From: Alkalispirillum mobile
GTDB lineage: Bacteria > Pseudomonadota > Gammaproteobacteria > Nitrococcales > Halorhodospiraceae
DNA: 64,000 bases
Assembly (NCBI RefSeq): GCF_003664325.1
Contig: NZ_RCDA01000002.1
Span: forward strand, 1 to 64,000
Direction of reading: 5' to 3'
Position 1 is the stretch's first letter. Every line of letters begins with the position of its first letter. The translations under genes were made by a program, and so were the position numbers. This document shows, piece by piece, positions 45,960 through 55,900 of this stretch. The notes below the pieces were generated by a model. The model did no database searches. It saw nothing but the letters and a program-made list of their open reading frames with translations, and was not told the origin of the DNA.

Positions 45960-46321
45960 GGGTGATGATCTGGGTCGCGCTGGGTGGGGCGCTGGGCGCT
46001 GCACTGCGGTACCTGCTCGGCCTGGCCCCCTGGGGCGCCTTCCCCTGGGATACGCTGCTGGTGAACGGCCTGGGGTGTCTGGTCATCGGTTGGGTGGCGA
46101 TACGCACGGCACCGGACGGGGCCTGGCCACTGGCGCCGCACCTGCGGCAGTTTCTGATGACGGGGGTGTGTGGCGGCTTCACCACCTTCTCGGTCTTCAG
46201 CCTGGAGACCCTGGCCCTGTTGCAGGACGGGGCCTGGGTGTGGGGCGCGCTGTACGTGGGTGCCACGCTTCTGGTGGCCTTGCTCGGGGCTGCGGCCGGT
46301 ATAGCCCTGGCGCGGGACTGA
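45956..46321 (+). CDS. crcB: CrcB fluoride channel, second of a tandem pair
   Basis: A second CrcB of 121 residues, starting at GTG 45956 within a GTGA overlap. VALGGALGAALRYLLGL, DTLLVNGLGCLVIGW and GVCGGFTTFSVFSLE are typical. The two copies differ enough that they could form a heterodimeric channel, as in bacteria with paired crcB genes, or act as separate homodimers. ATG at 45965 is an alternative start. Confidence 0.9.
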   Translation: MRVMIWVALGGALGAALRYLLGLAPWGAFPWDTLLVNGLGCLVIGWVAIRTAPDGAWPLAPHLRQFLMTGVCGGFTTFSVFSLETLALLQDGAWVWGALYVGATLLVALLGAAAGIALARD

Positions 46322-46327
46322 GGCCGG

Positions 46328-48343
46328 TTATTCGGCCCCGCCCTCGTGCGCCGCGCCCTCGGCCGTCGTCGGCAGGATCAGCGGGATGGGGACGTGCAGT
46401 GCGGCGGCCAGCGCGCGCAGCAGCTCCGCCTCCCGGATGTTCACCTGCCCGTTGTGGGCCACGGTGGCCACCATCGCCTCCACCAGCTTGCGCTTGTTGC
46501 CCGGGGAGAGGCGGTCGAGTCGGGGCAGCATCGTGCCCAGGGCCTTGGGCCAGTTCTCGGGGATCCCGTAGCTGGGAGGCTGGTTCTCGCGGTAGAGCAC
46601 GGCCATGCCGGCGGCATAGGCGGCCCGGGCGCTTTCTTTGTCGCCCTCCGCGCCGGCCGCGGCCAGCACCGAGAGCAGCTGGCGGATGCCCTCCACCTTA
46701 TCCGCATTGACCCGGGCGTGGCCGCGGTCCGCGCCACTGGGGTTGAGTACATCGCGCAGGTGCCCGTTGAACAGCTGTGCCAGCGCGAACTCGAACACCG
46801 AGACCTGGCCGTCCTTGGCGATCAGCGCCTCCACCGTGGCCTGCAATGCCGCCAGGTCTTCCCGCGGTTGGTGGCGGAGCGCGGGCAGGGCCAGTTCCAG
46901 CACCGGCAGGCGCTGGTCCGGTGCCAGGGTCCAGTCGGCCGCAAGCCACCCCTGCAGGGTCTCTGCGGCCTCGTCCCCCCAGTCCTCTGCCACCTGCTGC
47001 AGTTGCTGGTCCCGCACCTTGCGGTCGTCGCTGATCAGCAGGTAGAGCACCGCCAGACCGGCCTGGTCGCTGTGCACTGCATCGGTGAGCGGATCGGGCA
47101 GGCGCTCGATCAGGCGGGCCGCGCCCTGGTGGCGGCGGGTGTCGGGCTGGTCCACGTCGGCGAGAATCGCCGCCAGGATGGCCCCCTGGGGCAGGGCCTC
47201 CATGCCGGGCAGCGGGGTGACGCCGGGAATGCCGCTGCGCCCACCGGTCTGTGCCTCTTCCCGTGACTGGCGGGCGGCCGCTTCCGCTTCAGCCCGGGCC
47301 TCCTTGCGGCGCTTTTCCTGTTGCGCCAGCGCGGCCAGGTCGCGTTCGGGGTCGAACTGCGGGTCGACGGCGCGGATGCGCTGCTCCAGCGGCGGGTGGG
47401 TGGCCAGCAGCCCGCTCATGGAGGCAAAGCCCGAGGCAAACAGCATATGGCTGACCTCCTCGGTCTCCGGGGATTCCAGGCCGGAGCCGCGGCTGTGCAG
47501 GGCGATCTTTTTCAGCGCACCGCCGATGCTGTCCGGGTTGCGGGTGTACTGCACCGCCGAGGCGTCGGCCAGGAATTCGCGCTGGCGCGAGACCGCCGCC
47601 TTGATCAGCCGGCCGAAGAACACCCCCAGCGCCCCCACCAGGATCAGCGCCAGCCCCAGGGCAGCGATGCCCATGGCGGCCTGTTTGCCTTCCCGGCTGC
47701 CGCCGCCGACAAAGATGGCGCGGGTCATGAACCGGCCCACCACGGTGAGCACCAGTAACCCGAACACTACCCCCATCAGGCGGATGTTCAGGCGCATGTC
47801 GCCGTTGACGATGTGGGCGAACTCGTGGGCCACCACGCCCTGCAGTTCCTCGCGGTTCAGCTTCTCCAGCGTACCGCGGGTCACTGCCACGGCGGCGTCG
47901 CTCTGGCTGTAGCCGGCGGCGAAGGCATTGATGGCCTTCTCCTCCTCCAGCACGTAGACATCGGGCACCGGCGTGCCGGAGGCCAGCGCCACCTCCTCCA
48001 CCACGTTGAGCAGCTGGCGCCGCTTGGGGTCGCGGGTGTCAGGGGTGACGCGGGTGCCGCCCAGCATCTCCGCCACCTTGCTGCCGCCGCCGGAGAGGCT
48101 GGCCACCCGGAAGGCGCTGGCCAGCCCGATGCCGGCCACCACCAGCACCGTGGAGGTGATCAACAGCTCCAGGTTGTCCTCGACCCACCGCGCCGGCGGG
48201 GCGCCGGCCGGGGGTGGTTCACCCAGGAAGAACAGCACCAGGGCATTGACCACCACGGCGATGGCGATCACCCCCAGTACGAACAAGAGGATCAGCCAGA
48301 GGGTGGTGCGGCGTGCACGGTCCTGATGCTCGAAAAAGTTCAT
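46328..48343 (-). CDS. M48 family zinc metalloprotease with large C-terminal extension
   Basis: The protein has 671 residues. Two N-terminal helices (about 15-38 and 52-75) anchor it; HEFAH near residue 170 is the zinc site, with KAINAFAAGYS and a further helix pair around 185-225, as in HtpX-like proteases. The last ~340 residues are a soluble helical extension that includes a TerB-like stretch (IREAELLRALAAALHVPIP). Membrane protein quality control is the likely role of the protease part; the extension is unassigned. It is convergent with crcB. Confidence 0.88.
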   Translation of the reverse strand: MNFFEHQDRARRTTLWLILLFVLGVIAIAVVVNALVLFFLGEPPPAGAPPARWVEDNLELLITSTVLVVAGIGLASAFRVASLSGGGSKVAEMLGGTRVTPDTRDPKRRQLLNVVEEVALASGTPVPDVYVLEEEKAINAFAAGYSQSDAAVAVTRGTLEKLNREELQGVVAHEFAHIVNGDMRLNIRLMGVVFGLLVLTVVGRFMTRAIFVGGGSREGKQAAMGIAALGLALILVGALGVFFGRLIKAAVSRQREFLADASAVQYTRNPDSIGGALKKIALHSRGSGLESPETEEVSHMLFASGFASMSGLLATHPPLEQRIRAVDPQFDPERDLAALAQQEKRRKEARAEAEAAARQSREEAQTGGRSGIPGVTPLPGMEALPQGAILAAILADVDQPDTRRHQGAARLIERLPDPLTDAVHSDQAGLAVLYLLISDDRKVRDQQLQQVAEDWGDEAAETLQGWLAADWTLAPDQRLPVLELALPALRHQPREDLAALQATVEALIAKDGQVSVFEFALAQLFNGHLRDVLNPSGADRGHARVNADKVEGIRQLLSVLAAAGAEGDKESARAAYAAGMAVLYRENQPPSYGIPENWPKALGTMLPRLDRLSPGNKRKLVEAMVATVAHNGQVNIREAELLRALAAALHVPIPLILPTTAEGAAHEGGAE

Positions 48344-48423
48344 GTCGGTGTTCCTTCATCCCTTGTTGGAACGGTGATCGCGGGGCGGTGGCCCGTTGGG
48401 GCGGGGGCGCGCCGGCGTTGCCG

Positions 48424-49296
48424 TCAGCCCGCAGCAGGTGCCAGGTCGATCAACCCGGTGGCTATGCCCAGCGCCAGCGCCCAGACATAGAACGAGAATA
48501 CCTTGAGGCGCGCCCGATACAAGAAGTAGATCACCAGTTTCAGGGAGATGATGCCGACGATGGCGGCCACCACGAAGCCCACGGCCAGCGCCGAGAAGCC
48601 CACGGTGTTGGGCAGCCCCAGGCGGTAGACCTCGATGGCCTGGAGCAGGGTGGCCGCGCAGATGGTGGGGATCGCCAGAAAGAAGCTGTACTCGGCCGCC
48701 CAGCGGCGCTTCAGCCCGGTGAACAGGGCGAAGACGATGGTCATTGCGCTGCGGGAGAGCCCGGGCATCAGGGCAAAGCCCTGGGCCAGGCCGATGACAC
48801 CGGCCACCTTCAGGTTGATGCCCTTCAACCCACGCCGGCGCGGGGCCAGCCGGTCGGTCCACCAGAGCAGGATGCCGGTCAGGGTGAGCGTGCCGGCGAT
48901 CATCATGGGTGAGCCGAAGATGTGCTCGAAGGTGGCCTTCAGGGTCAGGCCCAGCACCCCGGTGCACAGTACCGAGAACATGCCCAGCCAGAAGAGCCGC
49001 CAGTAAAGGGGCAGCCCGCCGCGACCACCCCGGCCGGCCCACTCCCAGGCGCCCCCCAGGGCGTTCCCGCTGAAGCGCCAGAGGCTGGGCCAGAACACCA
49101 CCGCAATGGAGACCAGCGTGCCCACGTGGACCACTAGCGCAAACAGGATCATCTCCGGGCTCTCCGGCGGCGGCAGGGTCTCCCCGCGTGCGATGAGCCA
49201 GTGCTCGGTCAGCACCATGTGAGCGGTGGAGCTGACCGGGAGGAACATGAAGATGCCCTGAATGACCCCAAGCAGGGCGGCTATCCACAAGGCCAT
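48424..49296 (-). CDS. divergent undecaprenyl-diphosphatase (UppP/BacA)-like membrane protein
   Basis: This 290-residue protein has about eight helices and belongs to the UppP/BacA family, which dephosphorylates undecaprenyl diphosphate. The start at ATG 49296 has AGGA upstream. The second motif PGLSRSAMT and LPVSSTAH are present. The first motif, normally (E/Q)GxTE with catalytic Glu, reads QGIFM: Gln13 and Met17, so the second acidic residue is missing. It may be a paralogue with altered activity, while an orthodox uppP probably lies elsewhere. The family assignment is firm, the reaction is not. Confidence 0.82.
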   Translation of the reverse strand: MALWIAALLGVIQGIFMFLPVSSTAHMVLTEHWLIARGETLPPPESPEMILFALVVHVGTLVSIAVVFWPSLWRFSGNALGGAWEWAGRGGRGGLPLYWRLFWLGMFSVLCTGVLGLTLKATFEHIFGSPMMIAGTLTLTGILLWWTDRLAPRRRGLKGINLKVAGVIGLAQGFALMPGLSRSAMTIVFALFTGLKRRWAAEYSFFLAIPTICAATLLQAIEVYRLGLPNTVGFSALAVGFVVAAIVGIISLKLVIYFLYRARLKVFSFYVWALALGIATGLIDLAPAAG

Positions 49297-49378
49297 GCGA
49301 TGAAATCCTTTTGGGTGGGGCGGTGAAGCGCTCCTTCTACCCGGCCCGGTGTGAGTGGTCAAGACAGCCTTGCTCAGT

Positions 49379-49408
49379 TTGACAGGCAGCGGGAAACGGG
49401 GTTATTTT
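49379..49408 (+). promoter_or_regulatory. candidate promoter for the mgtE-like leader transcript
   Basis: A perfect TTGACA (49379-49384) is followed after 18 bases by TATTTT (49403-49408). If used, it gives a leader of about 300 bases before the short ORF at 49717 and 500 before the mgtE-like gene. A TAGAAT at 49583-49588 is a weaker alternative -10 box. Confidence 0.4.
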
Positions 49409-49554
49409 GTGAAACGGTTTTAGGCCACAAGAGGTAGTGCGGTTAACTCAAAGCCGCGCAGCCGTTGATGAACCCATCGGTCCCTAGATCGACTTTCAAT
49501 TTAACCAGCCCTGGCCACGCCAATGGCGGCGCTGAGGCGAGCCTGTATTACCCC

Positions 49555-49606
49555 GCCTGATTCCCCCCGGGCACGGCGCCCGTAGAATCCCGCGCGGTAA
49601 TCAGGC
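49555..49606 (+). promoter_or_regulatory. long stem-loop in the mgtE-like leader region
   Basis: The 420-base gap 49297-49716 holds no gene on either strand that I can support. Within it GCCTGATT (49555-49562) and AATCAGGC (49599-49606) form a perfect 8-pair stem that encloses a second small hairpin (GGGC/GCCC). Other short inverted repeats (GCGGTT/AGCCGC near 49440; GCGGT/ACCGC near 49677) suggest a structured RNA leader. No M-box or Mn2+ riboswitch consensus was recognised. Confidence 0.35.
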
Positions 49607-49716
49607 CGCAGCGGGTCTTCACAGCCGAGCTCCAGCAGTCGGCAACCCCTCCCAGCGCTTAGTGGCAGTGCGGTCGCGCGACACCGCGCGCCAGGGCCTT
49701 ATGCCGGGAGGTGACC

Positions 49717-49854
49717 ATGCTCACCGACGACGACGTTCCGCTACCGAGTACCAGCGCCGACGGCCAGCCGCCGTCGGCCCGCCGTGGTGTCCGGTTGGCG
49801 GACGCCGGTGGCATGGTGCCTGTGTCCCCGCAACGAGGCGCGTTCCCAGGCTGA
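49717..49854 (+). CDS. short leader ORF with acidic, Pro-rich N-terminus
   Basis: A 45-codon frame starts with ATG 49717, 5 bases behind a very good GGAGGTG. It begins MLTDDDVPLPSTSADGQPP, an Asp/Pro-rich start like that of the MgtL leader peptide (MEPDPTPLP), which in enteric bacteria destabilises ribosomes at low Mg2+. Its stop codon (49852-49854) lies 7 bases before a hairpin that covers the ribosome-binding site of the next gene. The peptide is probably regulatory, not functional in itself. The ATG overlapping the stop (49854-49856) could also restart translation in the downstream frame. Confidence 0.5.
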   Translation: MLTDDDVPLPSTSADGQPPSARRGVRLADAGGMVPVSPQRGAFPG

Positions 49855-49860
49855 TGCACC

Positions 49861-49916
49861 GGCTCCGGCGACCGGGCGAAAACGCTCGCGTATGCCTGAC
49901 CCATGGAGCCGGAGCC
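49861..49916 (+). promoter_or_regulatory. hairpin masking the Shine-Dalgarno of the truncated mgtE-like gene
   Basis: GGCTCCGG (49861-49868) pairs perfectly with CCGGAGCC (49909-49916), directly touching the ATG at 49917 and including its GGAG. Inside, CGGGCG (49873-49878) and CGCTCG (49883-49888) form a second hairpin with an AAAA loop. A ribosome ending the leader ORF at 49854 would cover or open the 5' arm, so translation of the two frames should be linked. Confidence 0.5.
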
Positions 49917-50762
49917 ATGATCGAAGCCATCATCCATAACCTGCATCTCGGCCGCACCCGCCGCGCGGCTGAACTCTGCCTGCATCTCGATATCACCCAG
50001 CAGGTGCGTCTGTTTTCCGCATTGGACGGGAGCGATATCCCTGTCCTCTTCAACCGCCTGCCCTACCGCCGTGCCCTGAAGATTTTTCGCGGAATGAGCG
50101 TGGGCGCGCGGCAGCGTCTGCTCAGTGCACTGCCGGCGGAGGCTGCCGCCCGCCTGCTGACCCCCGTACCGCTGCCGGAACTGGTCCTGGCACTGGACGA
50201 GACCCCGGTCAACCGGTTGCAGGACATTCTGCGTGCTCTGCCGGCGGAGCGCCGCCAGGCCCTGCTCGGCGCCCTGGAGCAGCCGACCGGGGCAGTGGGC
50301 CGGTACATGCGCCCCGATACCCTGGCCGTGACCCGGGGTACGCCGGTGGAGGGGGCCATGAAGAAACTCCTCCGCCACCAGGCCCACGTGCTGTTCGTGG
50401 TGGATGAGCGTGGCCGCTACCTCGGTTTCGTCACCCGGGGAAGCCTGGCCGGCCGTGAGGCCGCGGCGCCGGTGGAGCGGCAACTGCTGGGTATCGGTCT
50501 GGCACTGACCCCGGAGCAGGCCCTGAGCGGGGTTCGCGGCCTGATGGCCCGCGCTGGCGTCGGTGTGCTGCCGGTGCTGGACGAGCGGGGTGCCCTGGCC
50601 GGTGCGCTGCATGGTCGCGACCTGCCCCCGGTTACCGTTGACGAGGTGCGGGCCCGTCGCCGTGGGGGCGGGCTTCGGCGCATGCTCAGCCTGGGACTCG
50701 TCACGGGTGGCTTGCTGGGGCTGCCCCTCATGGTCACGCTGTTCTTCGGCACCTTGGCTTAA
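49917..50762 (+). CDS. MgtE-like regulatory protein: MgtE N-domain, CBS pair, single membrane helix
   Basis: From ATG 49917 the product has 281 residues. Residues 1-110 form the helical superhelix of MgtE (LFSALDGSDIPVLFNRLPYRRALKIF, LVLALDETPVNRLQDILRALP); about 120-245 is a CBS pair (VGRYMRPDTLAVTRGTPVEGAMKKLL, VLFVVDERGRYLGFVTRGSL, GVLPVLDERGALAGALHGRDL). Only one hydrophobic helix follows (LVTGGLLGLPLMVTLFFG), in place of the five-helix channel. A full MgtE gene follows 66 bases on. It may be a regulator or decoy partner of MgtE. An alternative start is ATG 49854, overlapping the leader stop. Confidence 0.8.
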   Translation: MIEAIIHNLHLGRTRRAAELCLHLDITQQVRLFSALDGSDIPVLFNRLPYRRALKIFRGMSVGARQRLLSALPAEAAARLLTPVPLPELVLALDETPVNRLQDILRALPAERRQALLGALEQPTGAVGRYMRPDTLAVTRGTPVEGAMKKLLRHQAHVLFVVDERGRYLGFVTRGSLAGREAAAPVERQLLGIGLALTPEQALSGVRGLMARAGVGVLPVLDERGALAGALHGRDLPPVTVDEVRARRRGGGLRRMLSLGLVTGGLLGLPLMVTLFFGTLA

Positions 50763-50774
50763 CACCACATTAAC

Positions 50775-50800
50775 CCGCCCCGTCTACAGTGACGGGGCGG
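50775..50800 (+). promoter_or_regulatory. intercistronic hairpin before mgtE
   Basis: CCGCCCCGTC (50775-50784) and GACGGGGCGG (50791-50800) form a perfect 10-pair stem with a 6-base loop, between the truncated mgtE-like gene and mgtE. Only a weak AATTT follows, so partial termination or message stabilisation is as likely as a true terminator. Confidence 0.5.
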
Positions 50801-50828
50801 CCCGCCCAATTTGCAGGAGGCGTAAACA

Positions 50829-52187
50829 ATGGAAGAAGAAAACACGCTGGTTCCCCGCATCCAGCAGGCACTGGCCGAGCGCCGGTGGAGTGAGGTCCGG
50901 GAAGCCGTTGCCGACGAGGCCGCGCAGGACATCGCCGAAATCATGCTGGAGCTTGAAAAGGCAGAACGCATCTTCCTTTTCAAGCTTCTGCCCCGGCACC
51001 AGGCCAACGAGGTCTTCGCCTACCTCTCGCCGGACAACCAGGATGCCCTCCTCGAGGACATGACCGACGAGGAGACCCGGGAGGTGCTGGCCAATCTGAC
51101 GCCCGACGACCGGACCGCACTCCTGGAGGAGTTGCCTGCCCCGGCCACCCAGCGACTGCTGGAAATGCTGCCTGCCGGGGACCGCCGGCGTGCGCAACAG
51201 CTGCTGGGTTACCCGGATGAATCCGTCGGTCGTCTCATGACGCCCGAGTACATCTCGGTGCGGCCGAACTGGACCATCGAGCAGGCGCTGGCCCACATCC
51301 GCGCCCAGAAAGAGCGGGGCGAGACGGTGAACGTCATCCACGTCACCGACAGCGAGGGCAAGTTGCTGGACGCCCTGTCCATCCGCCGCTTCATCCTGGC
51401 GGAGCCTGACAGCGAAGTGGAGTCCGTCATGGACTACCGCTACATCAGCGTCTCTGCCTTCGAGGATCGGGAGAAGGCGGTTGAGACGGTGCAGCACTAC
51501 GACCTCTCGGCCCTGCCGGTGGTGGACTCCGAGGGCGTGCTGCTGGGCATCGTCACCCTCGACGACGTGATGGACGTGGCCGAGGCCGAGGCCACCGAGG
51601 ACTTCCACAAGCTGGGTAGTGTGGGCGTGCTCAACCTGGGCCTGCGGGACGCCAGCCTCTGGGCTCTCTACCAGCGTCGCGTGGGCTGGCTGGTGCTGCT
51701 GGTCTTCATCAACATGTTCGGCGGCGAGATCATCGGCGCCTACGAGGACACCCTGGCCGCCGTCATCGTGCTGGTCACCTTCCTGCCGCTGGTGGTGGAC
51801 ACCGCGGGTAACGCCGGCACCCAGTCCGCCACGTTGATGGTGCGTGGTCTGGCGACGGGTGACGTCAGATCGAAGGATTGGCTCGGGCTGTGGGGCAAGG
51901 AGGCCATGGTCTCCGTGGCGCTGGGTGTGACCCTGGCGGTGGCCGTATCCTTCCTCGGGTTCTACCGCGGTGGCATGGATATCGCCTACGTGGTCGCTCT
52001 GTCCATGGTGGCCGTGGTCTTCATGGGGAGCATGGTCGGCATGCTGCTGCCCTTCATCCTGGCCCGCTTCAAGCTGGACCCGGCCACTGCCAGTGCGCCG
52101 CTGATCACCTCCATCGCCGATATTTTCGGCATCCTCATCTACTTCGCCATCGCCACGGCGATGCTGGATGTGAGCGGCGCCGCCTGA
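50829..52187 (+). CDS. mgtE: magnesium transporter MgtE
   Basis: MgtE is a Mg2+-selective channel gated by cytoplasmic Mg2+. It has 452 residues. The N-domain spans about 1-130, the CBS pair about 135-260 (VGRLMTPEYISVRPNWTIEQAL, LPVVDSEGVLLGIVTLDDVMDV), then the plug helix and five membrane helices. VDTAGNAGTQSATLMVRGLA and ITSIADIFGILIYFAIA contain the ion-path residues, including the conserved Asp of helix 5. AGGAGG lies 8 bases before the ATG. It is the second structural gene behind the leader at 49717. Confidence 0.95.
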   Translation: MEEENTLVPRIQQALAERRWSEVREAVADEAAQDIAEIMLELEKAERIFLFKLLPRHQANEVFAYLSPDNQDALLEDMTDEETREVLANLTPDDRTALLEELPAPATQRLLEMLPAGDRRRAQQLLGYPDESVGRLMTPEYISVRPNWTIEQALAHIRAQKERGETVNVIHVTDSEGKLLDALSIRRFILAEPDSEVESVMDYRYISVSAFEDREKAVETVQHYDLSALPVVDSEGVLLGIVTLDDVMDVAEAEATEDFHKLGSVGVLNLGLRDASLWALYQRRVGWLVLLVFINMFGGEIIGAYEDTLAAVIVLVTFLPLVVDTAGNAGTQSATLMVRGLATGDVRSKDWLGLWGKEAMVSVALGVTLAVAVSFLGFYRGGMDIAYVVALSMVAVVFMGSMVGMLLPFILARFKLDPATASAPLITSIADIFGILIYFAIATAMLDVSGAA

Positions 52188-52215
52188 CGGGCGGCCCGCA
52201 CGCCGGAGGTGCGCC

Positions 52216-52299
52216 ATGGACTGGGTGGATATCCTGCTGCGCTTGTCCGTGCCCCCGGTGGTCCCCACCGGGGGCGCATTCGCGGTCCATTCCCGGTAG
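52216..52299 (+). CDS. possible 27-residue small protein
   Basis: ATG 52216, 5 bases behind GGAGGT, opens a 27-codon frame (MDWVDILLRLSVPPVV...) ending at TAG 52297. It lies in the 154-base gap between mgtE and dcd, and a strong hairpin (52251-52275) lies within its coding sequence. The good ribosome-binding site argues for translation; no homologue comes to mind, and it could be a chance frame. Confidence 0.25.
   Translation: MDWVDILLRLSVPPVVPTGGAFAVHSR
52251..52275 (+). terminator. strong hairpin after mgtE
   Basis: GCCCCCGGTGG (52251-52261) and CCACCGGGGGC (52265-52275) form a perfect 11-pair stem with a 3-base loop, 63 bases after the mgtE stop. No T-run follows, so it may stop transcription only partly or protect the message end. 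Confidence 0.45.
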
Positions 52300-52341
52300 A
52301 CTGGCGGGCGGTAACCCCCAAGGAGCGGTACTTCGAGGCCC

Positions 52342-52908
52342 ATGAGCATCAAGTCAGACAAGTGGATTCGCCGCATGGCCGAGCAGACCGGCATGATCGA
52401 GCCGTTCGAGCCCGGGCAGGTGCGCGAGGTCAATGACCAGAAGGTGATCTCCTACGGCACCTCCAGTTACGGCTATGACGTGCGGTGCTCGTCGCACTTC
52501 AAGATCTTCACCAACATCAATACGGCCATCGTCGATCCCAAGGCCTTCGACAGTCGCAGCTTCGTCGACGTGGAGTCGGATGTCTGCATCATCCCCCCCA
52601 ACTCCTTCGCCCTGGCGCACACCGTCGAGTATTTCCGCATCCCGCGTACGGTGCTGACCATCTGCCTGGGCAAGTCCACCTATGCCCGCTGCGGCATCAT
52701 CGTGAATGTCACGCCGCTGGAGCCGGAGTGGGAGGGGCACGTCACCCTGGAGTTCTCCAACACCACCCCGCTGCCGGCGAAGATCTACGCCAACGAGGGT
52801 GTGGCGCAGATGCTGTTTTTCGAGTCCGACGAGGAGTGCGACACCTCCTACAAGGACCGGGGCGGCAAATACCAGGGCCAGCGCGGTGTGACCCTGCCCC
52901 GGGGGTGA
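52342..52908 (+). CDS. dcd: dCTP deaminase
   Basis: Dcd makes dUTP from dCTP for thymidylate synthesis. Length is 188 residues. [69 protein letters not shown] and the C-terminal [11 protein letters not shown], which closes the active site, are all typical. It is convergent with the large ATPase gene. Confidence 0.96.
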
Positions 52909-52923
52909 ACCGCACCGGGTGGC

Positions 52924-55900
52924 TCAGGCCAGCAGGGCCGCTTCCAGCCAGTCGATGACCCGGGCGTCGCGCCCGATCGCCTCCAGTGGCAGCTCCACCT
53001 TGGCCAGCGCGGCGCGGTAGCGCTCGGCGCTGTCCAGCCTTGGTTGTGGGTCCAGGTGGCCCTCCGACTGCAGGTAGGCCTCCAGTTCATCGATCTTCGC
53101 CTTTCTGAATCCGGACGCCTCGCCGTTCCGCAAGGCCTCCAGCAGGGCACGGGCGTCCCCTCCGTGGGCGTCGTTGATCTCCGCAACGCGCGCGATGAAG
53201 GTCTCACTGACGGCCCCGCTGGCCTCCAGCACGCCCCGGGTGACCGGCCGCCCGCGCCCCCGGCGCCAGGCGTGCAGCCAGTGCCGTGCCAGTTGGAGCC
53301 GGCAGTGCAGCTGCTGGTGGAGCGGCTCTGGGAGCTGTTCGCGCAGGGCCGGGTCCGCCAGCAGGCGTTCCAGCTCCCCCGCGTACCGGATCCGGAAGTC
53401 CCGTAACAGCCGATGGAGCGTATCCAGCTGGTCGCGCAGCAGGTGGAAGATGTGGATCTCGCCCGCGTGCTGCCACGGGTTGACCCCCGGTACCTGCAGT
53501 GCCTGGGCGTAGCTCTCGGCGGTGTGTCCGGCAGGATCCGGTACGGTTGCCTGCGCTGGCAGTTGCAGCTGCTGTTCGGAGAGTGCACGCCCGCTGGCGC
53601 GGAGGGTGGCCAGGTCCACGCAGTGGGGCACGCGGCCCAGGGCGGTCTCCCAGCGCTGGGCATCCTCCGGCTGGGCGCTGAGGTAGAAGACCTGCCGCCC
53701 GGTTTCCAGCAGGGCCGCGAGGCTGCCGGCAACCGCCTGGAAACGCTCCGGGTCGGTGGTGGTCAGGGCCTCGTCCAGGATCAGCGGCAGGGGCCGGGTC
53801 TGACGCTCCAGCTGTTCCAGCCAGGCGACCCGCAGGGCGATCAGCAGCTGCATGCGGGTGCCGGTGGACAGGGTATCCAGGGGATGGGGCCGGTCGCTGC
53901 GGTGGTCGACGGCCTGTAGCGCCTGCGAGGGACTGAGCCGCAGCCCGTAGCGTTGGTGGGTGAAGCGGCCGAAGAGCTGGTCGGCGCGGGCCAGCGCCTC
54001 GGGGCGGTGGTCCTGCTCGTGCCGGCGGGCCACCCGGTCCAGCAGGAAGCGCCCGGCACTGGCGCGCAGCGCGTGGTCCCGCTCTTCGGTCAGTCGCTCC
54101 CGGGCCTCGTCCCGCCGTGCCAGGGCCTCCTCCAGGTCGTGGCGCCGGCGCGCCTGTTCCAGGCGACTGTTGATGGCGGCGCGTTCCTCCTGCAGGGCCT
54201 CCACCCGTGCGGCGCGCTCGGCCGCCTCGTCGGCGGCGCGGCGTAGGGCCGGCTCGTCACCCGACTCCAGCCATTCCAGGATGTCGCCGCCGGCCCGGTC
54301 CTCCAGGTCACGTCGTCGCAGGCGATAGTTGCTGCGGGCTTCATCGCGCGCCTGGCGACAGGCCTGCCAGGCCTCCAGCTGGTCGATGCGCTCCAGCAGC
54401 AGGGGGCGCTGCGCCGGCGTAAGACCGGCGTCCCGGTAGAGCTGCTCCAGGGCCTCTTGGGTATCGCGCTGTTGCCGGGCCCGGTCCTGGATCAGTCGGT
54501 CCGCGTTGTCCACGCCTTGACGGGCACGTTCCGCGGTCTGCGCGCGTTCACGCAGCGCGTCCACGGCGGCGGTCAGCTTCTCGCCGGTAAGTTGTTCGCC
54601 GGCAAGTTGCCGAGGGGCGGCGTCCCAGTGGGCCAGTCGGGTCTGGACGGCAGCGCGCAGTTCGTCCATGTCCTGGGTCTGGCGCGTCAACGCGGCCTGT
54701 TCGCGCGCCAGCTCCTCCCGTGCCTGCTGGTGGCGGGCCAGGAGGTGCGCGGTGCGCTCCAGGGAGAGGGGCAGGCTGGCGTCCAGTCCGAGGGGGGCGG
54801 CGTCGGCCTGCAGCGCCTGCCGAGCAGCCGACTGGTCACTCCGGGCACGGGTGAGTTCGGCGTGCAGTTGATCTGCCTCATGGCGCCGCTGCTCGCGGCT
54901 GCGTGCCTGGTGATGGGCCCGTTCCAGCGCCTGCAGGCGCTGGTGGACGCCGGTCTCCGTCCAGTCCTCCGGGGGCGTCAGCGGCAGGTCGGCGAAGCGG
55001 GCCTGGCTGTCGCGACGGTCCCGCTGGCGCCACAGCACCACGCCACTGGCCCCGAGGCCGGCCAGCACGACCAGGCTGCTGGCGACGGTGGGCCAGTGGC
55101 CAAACGTGAGCCCGAGGGCCGTAGTGCCGGTGCCACCCAAGGCGGTGAGGCCGAGGCCGAACCACTGCAGGGGTTGGGGCTTCGGTTGGCGCAGCCAGCG
55201 GCGCAGTTCATGAGCGCCCTGCTCCAGTGGGGCGGGTGGGTCGCTGTCGGGGGCATCGCCGAGGGCTTCCAGCCGAGCCTCCAGGGCCTGGACCCGCTCG
55301 TCAGCCGCGTGCACCTTCCGCGCCCGCTCCTCCAGTCCGGCGAGCCGGTCCGGCGAGAGCGGTGGCAGCTTGGCGTCCTCGCCAGGGTCGCGGCCCAGCG
55401 CGCGGGCCGCCTCGGCGGCGGCGTGGCGGGCAGCCTCCAGCCGGGCCCGGCGCTGCACCACCTGCTCCTCCAGGCGGGCCAGCCGCTGGGCCTCGCTGGA
55501 TGCCGTCTGCAACTCGTCGGTTGGCGGCAAGCCCTCCGCCAGGCCGGTGCCCTGCCATTGCGCTTCGGCGCGATCGCGGTCCTCCCGGGCACGCTGCAGG
55601 GCGCGCCCCTGTTCGGCGAGTTGGCGTTCCAGCTCGTCCACGCGCGCCCGGGTGAGACCGGCCGGCATCGGATCGGGGTAGGCGGCCAGCCGTTCCTCCT
55701 GCTCCTGCAGGGCGCGGGCGGCCTCCAGGGCCTGCAGGGCGAGCTGGCAGGCCTCCTGGCGTTCGCGGGCGGCCCGGGCAGCGGTCAGTTCCTCGCGGAT
55801 GGCGGGCAGCCTGGCCTCGTCGGCGGCCAGCGCCTGGTGGGCGCGCTCCAGCTGGCGGAGTGCCTGTTCGCCCTGGAGCACCTCGCGCGCCGCCTGGTGA

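Follow-up and report, generated by a model that had tools for sequence, protein, structure and literature searches.

A putative ribosome-responsive leader before the MgtE-type genes of Alkalispirillum mobile

The window, a stretch of 64,000 nucleotides from Alkalispirillum mobile (contig NZ_RCDA01000002.1), carries two consecutive MgtE-type genes preceded by a promoter-like site and a short open reading frame (ORF) with its own Shine-Dalgarno sequence (SD), arranged as listed here.

49379..49408, + strand: promoter-like TTGACA-18-TATTTT, 10/12 match
49707..49714, + strand: GGAGGTGA, the leader ORF's SD, matching the anti-SD complement over 8 nt
49717..49854, + strand: leader ORF of 45 codons, from ATG 49717 to the TGA stop at 49852-49854, starting MLTDDDVPLPSTSA and ending FPG
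49917..50762, + strand: gene A, with MgtE_N (PF03448, 2.1e-14) and CBS (PF00571, 6.2e-13) domains and, by eye, a hydrophobic C-terminus
50829..52187, + strand: mgtE, a complete Mg2+ transporter with channel (PF01769), MgtE_N (PF03448) and CBS (PF00571) domains

Gene A, with its ATG at 49917-49919, had been called MgtE-like in a preliminary description of this DNA, and its Pfam domains bear this out, though the MgtE channel domain is missing; its protein might modulate MgtE gating. The gene behind it had rightly been taken for mgtE, is complete by Pfam, and encodes a product starting MEEEN. A BacA-family gene is divergent from the leader, and crcB (PF02537), of a fluoride-exporter family, lies at 45965-46321, some 3.4 kb upstream. 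The promoter-like match is the only one within 49280-50850, where shuffled sequences gave 0.1 +/- 0.3; from this single site at 49379-49408 we conclude that the 5' leader before gene A probably starts there and measures about 500 nt. By eye, a similar attgacg...tatttt occurs upstream of the leader in two related loci, L015 and L006. The same interval holds one terminator-like match, at 49477, against 0.9 in shuffles. No mgtA system had been noticed in view, and this extends to the organism's own genome, where no MgtA reached the curated cut-off of 610.75 bits (the best piece scored 211, pieces of one ORF being scored separately). Neither the window nor the own genome holds an M-box (RF00380) match over the gathering score, and comparison with other known RNAs yielded four weak matches, all far below gathering scores.

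The 45 codons of the leader ORF read MLTDDDVPLPSTSADGQPPSARRGVRLADAGGMVPVSPQRGAFPG, the first of them MLTDDDV, with the DDD run at codons 4-6. Its ribosome-binding site had been described as excellent, a judgment that counting upholds: of the 1691 window ATGs scored, just two, this one included, have an SD match of 8 nt, the longest observed, and 14 have one of at least 7 nt. In codon usage the ORF's own frame is the best of its frames, yet weak (log-odds -0.5; the first 45 codons score 14.4 in gene A and 30.4 in mgtE). The leader stop overlaps a further ATG (49854, within TGATG at 49852-49856) that is in frame with gene A. Restart at this ATG is possible and would extend gene A by 21 residues; the codon usage of these 21 codons is poor (log-odds -6.8).

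Four strands of the leader account for the predicted pairing around the ORF and the gene-A start.

49706..49726, + strand: strand 1, the leader SD and first codons, pairing with 49806-49828 in the minimum-energy fold
49799..49828, + strand: strand 2, pairing with strand 1 or, through 49799-49822, with strand 3
49847..49868, + strand: strand 3, the leader stop region and an anti-SD (49859-49866), defined by the fold and pair probabilities
49905..49916, + strand: strand 4, the gene-A SD region GGAGCCGGAGCC, defined by duplex 3:4 and opening cost

By their computed duplex energies (-28.8 kcal/mol for 1:2, -27.0 for 2:3 and -22.7 for 3:4) the strands form two mutually exclusive arrangements, 1:2 together with 3:4 or else 2:3, with the gene-A ribosome-binding site in strand 4. 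A hairpin of 8 pairs, beginning 7 bases after the ORF and hiding the gene-A SD, had been proposed from the sequence. The hiding and the 8 base pairs stand; the proposed arm is 6 nt from the ORF, and the proposed register is the minor one. Dominant is the pairing of 49859-49866 with 49905-49912 (8 bp, probability 0.98), which covers the GGAG at 49905-49908, better spaced for gene A, against a probability of 0.02 for the register with arms GGCTCCGG (49861-49868) and CCGGAGCC (49909-49916); the pairing can shift register because the gene-A SD region is a repeat. Folded alone, 49855-49925 reaches -33.4 kcal/mol (z -3.26; 1/200 shuffles as good). Among 51 start regions chosen by script, 14 match or surpass the gene-A region in folding, and the hairpin alone is therefore unexceptional in GC-rich DNA.

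We then modeled the ribosome by blocking 31 nt in RNAs folded from 49415 (long RNA) or from 49700 (short RNA). In the long RNA without ribosome, 3:4 forms with a probability of 1.00 and 2:3 with a probability of 0.00, and once the P site is at any of codons 1-7 the probability of 2:3 becomes 0.82-1.00. Codons 8, 9 and 10 give 0.38, 0.03 and 0.00, codons 11 and 12 bring it up again (0.91 and 1.00), and at codons 20 and 30 it amounts to 0.09 and 0.00. In the short RNA, 2:3 is favored or about even at codons 1-3 (0.44-0.81); at the acidic codons 4-6 it is 3:4 that is favored (2:3 at 0.00-0.02), yet the opening cost is lower. In these models, pair probabilities strengthen the predicted switch in the long RNA and weaken it in the short RNA. 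The cost of opening the gene-A start in the short RNA is 15.2 kcal/mol without ribosome, 7.4-11.2 with a ribosome at codons 1-6, 10.9-15.4 at codons 7-44, and lowest, at 6.4-6.6 kcal/mol, at codon 45 and the stop. Both the early drop, at the codons sampled, and the stop drop persist with four other footprints and in two longer RNAs. As the cost is also low in the middle of the ORF, namely at codons 8 (9.0) and 20 (8.3) of the long RNA and, with one footprint, at codon 40 of the short RNA (9.8), the early codons are not unique. A coarser measure, the mean unpaired probability of the SD, has its one clear rise at codons 44-46, with a mild one at codon 4. It is only a ribosome still on the leader that opens the gene-A SD in the fold; one that had departed would let the hairpin close.

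For the shuffle controls, the codons were picked after the codon-by-codon opening-cost scan. Shuffling 49742-49899 (n=240) gave an unoccupied cost as high in 3/240 cases, an early drop as large in 0/240 and a stop drop as large in 0/240. When 49742-49851 was shuffled and strands 1, 3 and 4 were kept, the smallest early drop of the native leader was 5.1 as against a maximum of 4.15 in 400 shuffles, and the same shuffling in the long RNA gave 3.4 as against a maximum of 1.22 in 69 shuffles.

Comparison with the family turned on two further elements of the leader.

49742..49759, + strand: core TACCGAGTACCAGCGCCG, identical in two Halorhodospira leaders
49756..49778, + strand: hairpin P2 of 9 bp, overlapping the core end and covarying with relatives

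An mgtE with at least 67% identity to that of the window is found in 10 of 12 family genomes, the own genome included, and four of the 10 carry the leader: the window's, G001 and G003, where the core is exact, and G007, which we judge to be Halorhodospira neutriphila, with a variant; G001 and G003 are judged to belong to the same genus. At the loci of G005, G006, G008, G010 and G011 the core was not found with two or fewer mismatches, and the contig of G004 ends within the leader. The leader of G001 stands directly before mgtE, with no gene-A homologue preceding mgtE in the stretch examined, and in G003 and G007 the order is leader, gene-A homologue, mgtE. Gene-A homologues adjoin mgtE in G003, G007 and G004. 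The longest run common to the window and either L015 or L006 is the 18 nt of the core (shuffle maxima 15 for L015 and 16 for L006, 2000 shuffles each); the third relative, L004, has only 8 nt exactly in common with the window leader, its link to that leader running by way of L006 and L015. Pairwise alignment of the whole window leader with those of the relatives is no better than shuffles, only the short core standing out. P2 is paired in 32/32 cells across the four leaders, with both sides changed in 4/8 pairs, and when its 3' arms are permuted over the leaders, 22 of the 24 arrangements lose pairs; only the true arrangement and the one that swaps two identical arms do not. In the three Halorhodospira leaders 15 of the 83 predicted pairs show two-sided change; the RNAalifold covariation term amounts to only -0.08 kcal/mol on these three sequences, and a three-helix model including P2 did not beat column shuffles of three sequences (122/500).

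The ORFs of the three Halorhodospira leaders have 33 codons each and the same start and stop. They begin MDSQVPSTSA, MDSQVPSTSA and MDSPVPSSNA, with a single early Asp and, by eye, no SD of note, so that neither the Asp/Pro start, the conservation of which had been put forward as a check, nor the strong SD of the window is conserved. A conserved leader peptide is not supported in the relatives: their ORF frame looks neutral (pN/pS 0.87, 1.01 and 1.97) and is not the most constrained one. A neutral or unconserved frame had been named beforehand as the result that would speak against leader-peptide control, and it was found in part, in a comparison that covers the Halorhodospira relatives. With the ORF neutral and lacking both a visible SD and an acidic/proline start, it is the RNA, therefore, that the relatives conserve. 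The SD of their genes is hidden too (opening cost 11.2-11.7 kcal/mol). With a ribosome at codons 1-5 this cost shifts by no more than 2.4 kcal/mol, and mostly rises; later drops occur at codons 6-13 in L015 and codons 11-13 in L006, with none above 1.0 in L004, and these differences mean that the relatives follow no common rule. Between ORF and gene, L015, L006 and L004 show seemingly exclusive stems, a four-strand layout built from other sequences (CCCTGCC-like, GGCAGGG-GGGG, and CCTCCC against the SD). Their first stem and the CCTCCC:SD pairing appear in the alignment fold, and the alternative stem is seen by eye only.

Wider searches were made with the same elements. A three-way-junction model built on the Halorhodospira core misses the window, and its matches in 8 of 369 gammaproteobacterial genomes (E 0.005-0.096), the own genome not among them, were taken as chance. 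The core pattern occurs in 45 stretches of the genome-contig collection, none with an MgtE or gene-A match (tblastn, E 1e-4); among them is L075 (Halorhodospira neutriphila), which is the G007 locus on a contig cut there. Three stretches of viral contigs hold the pattern, likewise with no MgtE or gene-A match, and none of 172 stretches of genome contigs matched by a gene-A peptide pattern was confirmed. Upstream of 13 other mgtE genes from the class, the best result was one stretch with 3 mismatches.

There is good support for a leader that controls MgtE-type genes. As to its working, we tentatively favor, at close to even confidence, a translational attenuator before the MgtE-type operon in which a ribosome on the early leader codons would free the gene-A SD. 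As long as the leader ORF is free of ribosomes, the RNA would take the form with 1:2 and 3:4 and the gene-A SD would be hidden; a ribosome at the first codons (MLTDDDV) would block strand 1, whereupon 2:3 would form and the SD would be free. At low Mg2+, ribosomes would pause at the early acidic codons or drop off there and strand 1 would be occupied longer, so that gene A, and perhaps mgtE behind it, would be translated more, and at high Mg2+ the ribosomes would run on. We infer Mg2+ as the signal, with low Mg2+ raising gene A, from analogy with the systems discussed below. The sign of the response is uncertain, because a ribosome terminating at the leader stop is also predicted to open the gene-A SD, a coupling that may add to or oppose the early-codon effect. 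The modeled ORF switch is suggested by one genome, the only one in which the DDD run is seen.

The leader might instead act through its RNA only, as an ion or metabolite riboswitch or a protein-binding site that hides the SD, with the ORF incidental or a relic. What the relatives conserve, nucleotides and helices (the 18-nt core, the covarying P2, the pairs changed on two sides) rather than the peptide, agrees with this, as does their hidden SD; the nearest kind would be the mgtE motif of Thioalkalivibrio, in whose published description a long stem likewise carries SD and AUG at its base (PMC11109978). We nevertheless consider this unlikely, if well short of negligible, given that the window ORF has a top-ranked SD and a response to ribosome position reached by 0/400 shuffles, and that the conserved fold itself is weakly marked, by the small covariation term, the three-helix model that shuffles equal and the Halorhodospira core model that misses the window. 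A lower probability still attaches to plain translational coupling, in which ribosomes ending the leader ORF open gene A, or restart at TGATG to give an extended gene A, and general translation rather than Mg2+ is reported. This would fit the minimum of the opening cost at codon 45 and the stop, a drop equaled in none of 240 shuffles and partly expected, as the ribosome there covers strand 3, and it would fit the in-frame ATG at 49854; it leaves strand 2 and the early-codon effect unexplained, it meets the poor codon usage of the extension, and by eye the gene-A homologues of L006 and L004 start right after a good SD. That there is no regulation at all, and that a GC-rich 5' leader owes ORF and pairing to its composition, strikes us as improbable: ORFs of at least 40 aa are indeed common (75 within 46000-54500), and so are start regions that fold as well as that of gene A, and against this stand the strong SD, the 18-nt core in common with Halorhodospira and a switch that shuffles did not reach.

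For a translational attenuator the closest described counterpart is mgtQ-mgtB of Salmonella, which as reported in PMC8092293 also has a short ORF with early acidic residues and an Mg2+-transport gene as target, and likewise sets 1:2 and 3:4 against 2:3, with 3:4 hiding the ribosome-binding site and a ribosome on strand 1 favoring 2:3. In that account by Choi et al., disturbing the stems alters mgtB translation as expected if a strand-1 ribosome favors 2:3 and so frees the ribosome-binding site, and the early acidic codons are needed (PMC8092293). The two differ in that MgtQ has 8 residues and is encoded between mgtC and mgtB, whereas the window ORF runs to 45 codons within a long 5' leader, has MgtE-type genes as targets and belongs to a host of the Halorhodospira family; and the mgtQ-mgtB layout is mutant-tested (PMC8092293), that of the window leader computed.

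The preliminary description had proposed control by leader translation on the model of MgtL. Its first half is supported by a layout that, judged by folds and shuffles, would respond to translation, and by the related leaders that precede mgtE or a homologue of gene A in three Halorhodospira genomes; MgtL as the model is not supported. According to PMC11282234 and PMC11552253, MgtL (mgtA) and CorL (corA) of enterobacteria act through Rho-dependent transcription termination, with leader translation repressing; for E. coli mgtA, PMC11552253 gives no Rho-dependent termination as detected. Like these, the window leader ORF precedes Mg2+-transport genes, and MgtL too has acidic and proline residues near its start; unlike them as described there, the window leader hides an SD, has an acidic start that is not conserved and has a target other than mgtA (PMC11282234, PMC11552253). 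Judged by anatomy, the window leader appears to follow the logic of mgtQ-mgtB (PMC8092293) and not that of MgtL, and the earlier comparison seems right in spirit without being the best one.

Two structured leaders invite comparison as well. The mgtE motif SRC-65-1, a riboswitch candidate of Thioalkalivibrio, resembles the window leader, as far as its description goes, in being a structured leader and stands directly before mgtE; the description as available mentions no leader ORF, and the window has one (PMC11109978). By description only, the two may be related. The M-box, as summarized in PMC12810186, is an Mg2+-sensing RNA in the leaders of Mg2+-transport genes of other bacteria, and in mycobacteria it occurs with a leader ORF, a different element from that of the window. 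In the open-licence PMC literature we found no description of the window leader.

Leader ORFs that respond to Mg2+ by way of ribosome stability have been described for mgtA, mgtB and corA of Salmonella and E. coli (PMC8092293, PMC11282234, PMC11552253), and an MgtE-type case in a distant gammaproteobacterium, if true, would show that such sensing recurs. One history, which we put forward as doubtful, is that an Mg2+ switch of MgtQ logic arose outside enterobacteria before MgtE-type genes, on an older RNA-only leader kept by Halorhodospira, the window lineage having gained the strong SD and the acidic run and with them a ribosome-timed sensor. The window leader makes sharp predictions for strand swaps, DDD changes and stop-codon shifts, and the Halorhodospira leaders add a candidate regulatory RNA before mgtE beside the published one of Thioalkalivibrio (PMC11109978).

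Downstream of gene A, mgtE is preceded by an SD of its own and a strong hairpin. The gap at 50763-50828 folds with a z of -4.07 (0/200 shuffles as good). Within it lies a 10-bp hairpin at 50775-50800, without a T run, which could define mRNA ends or set mgtE expression apart from that of gene A.
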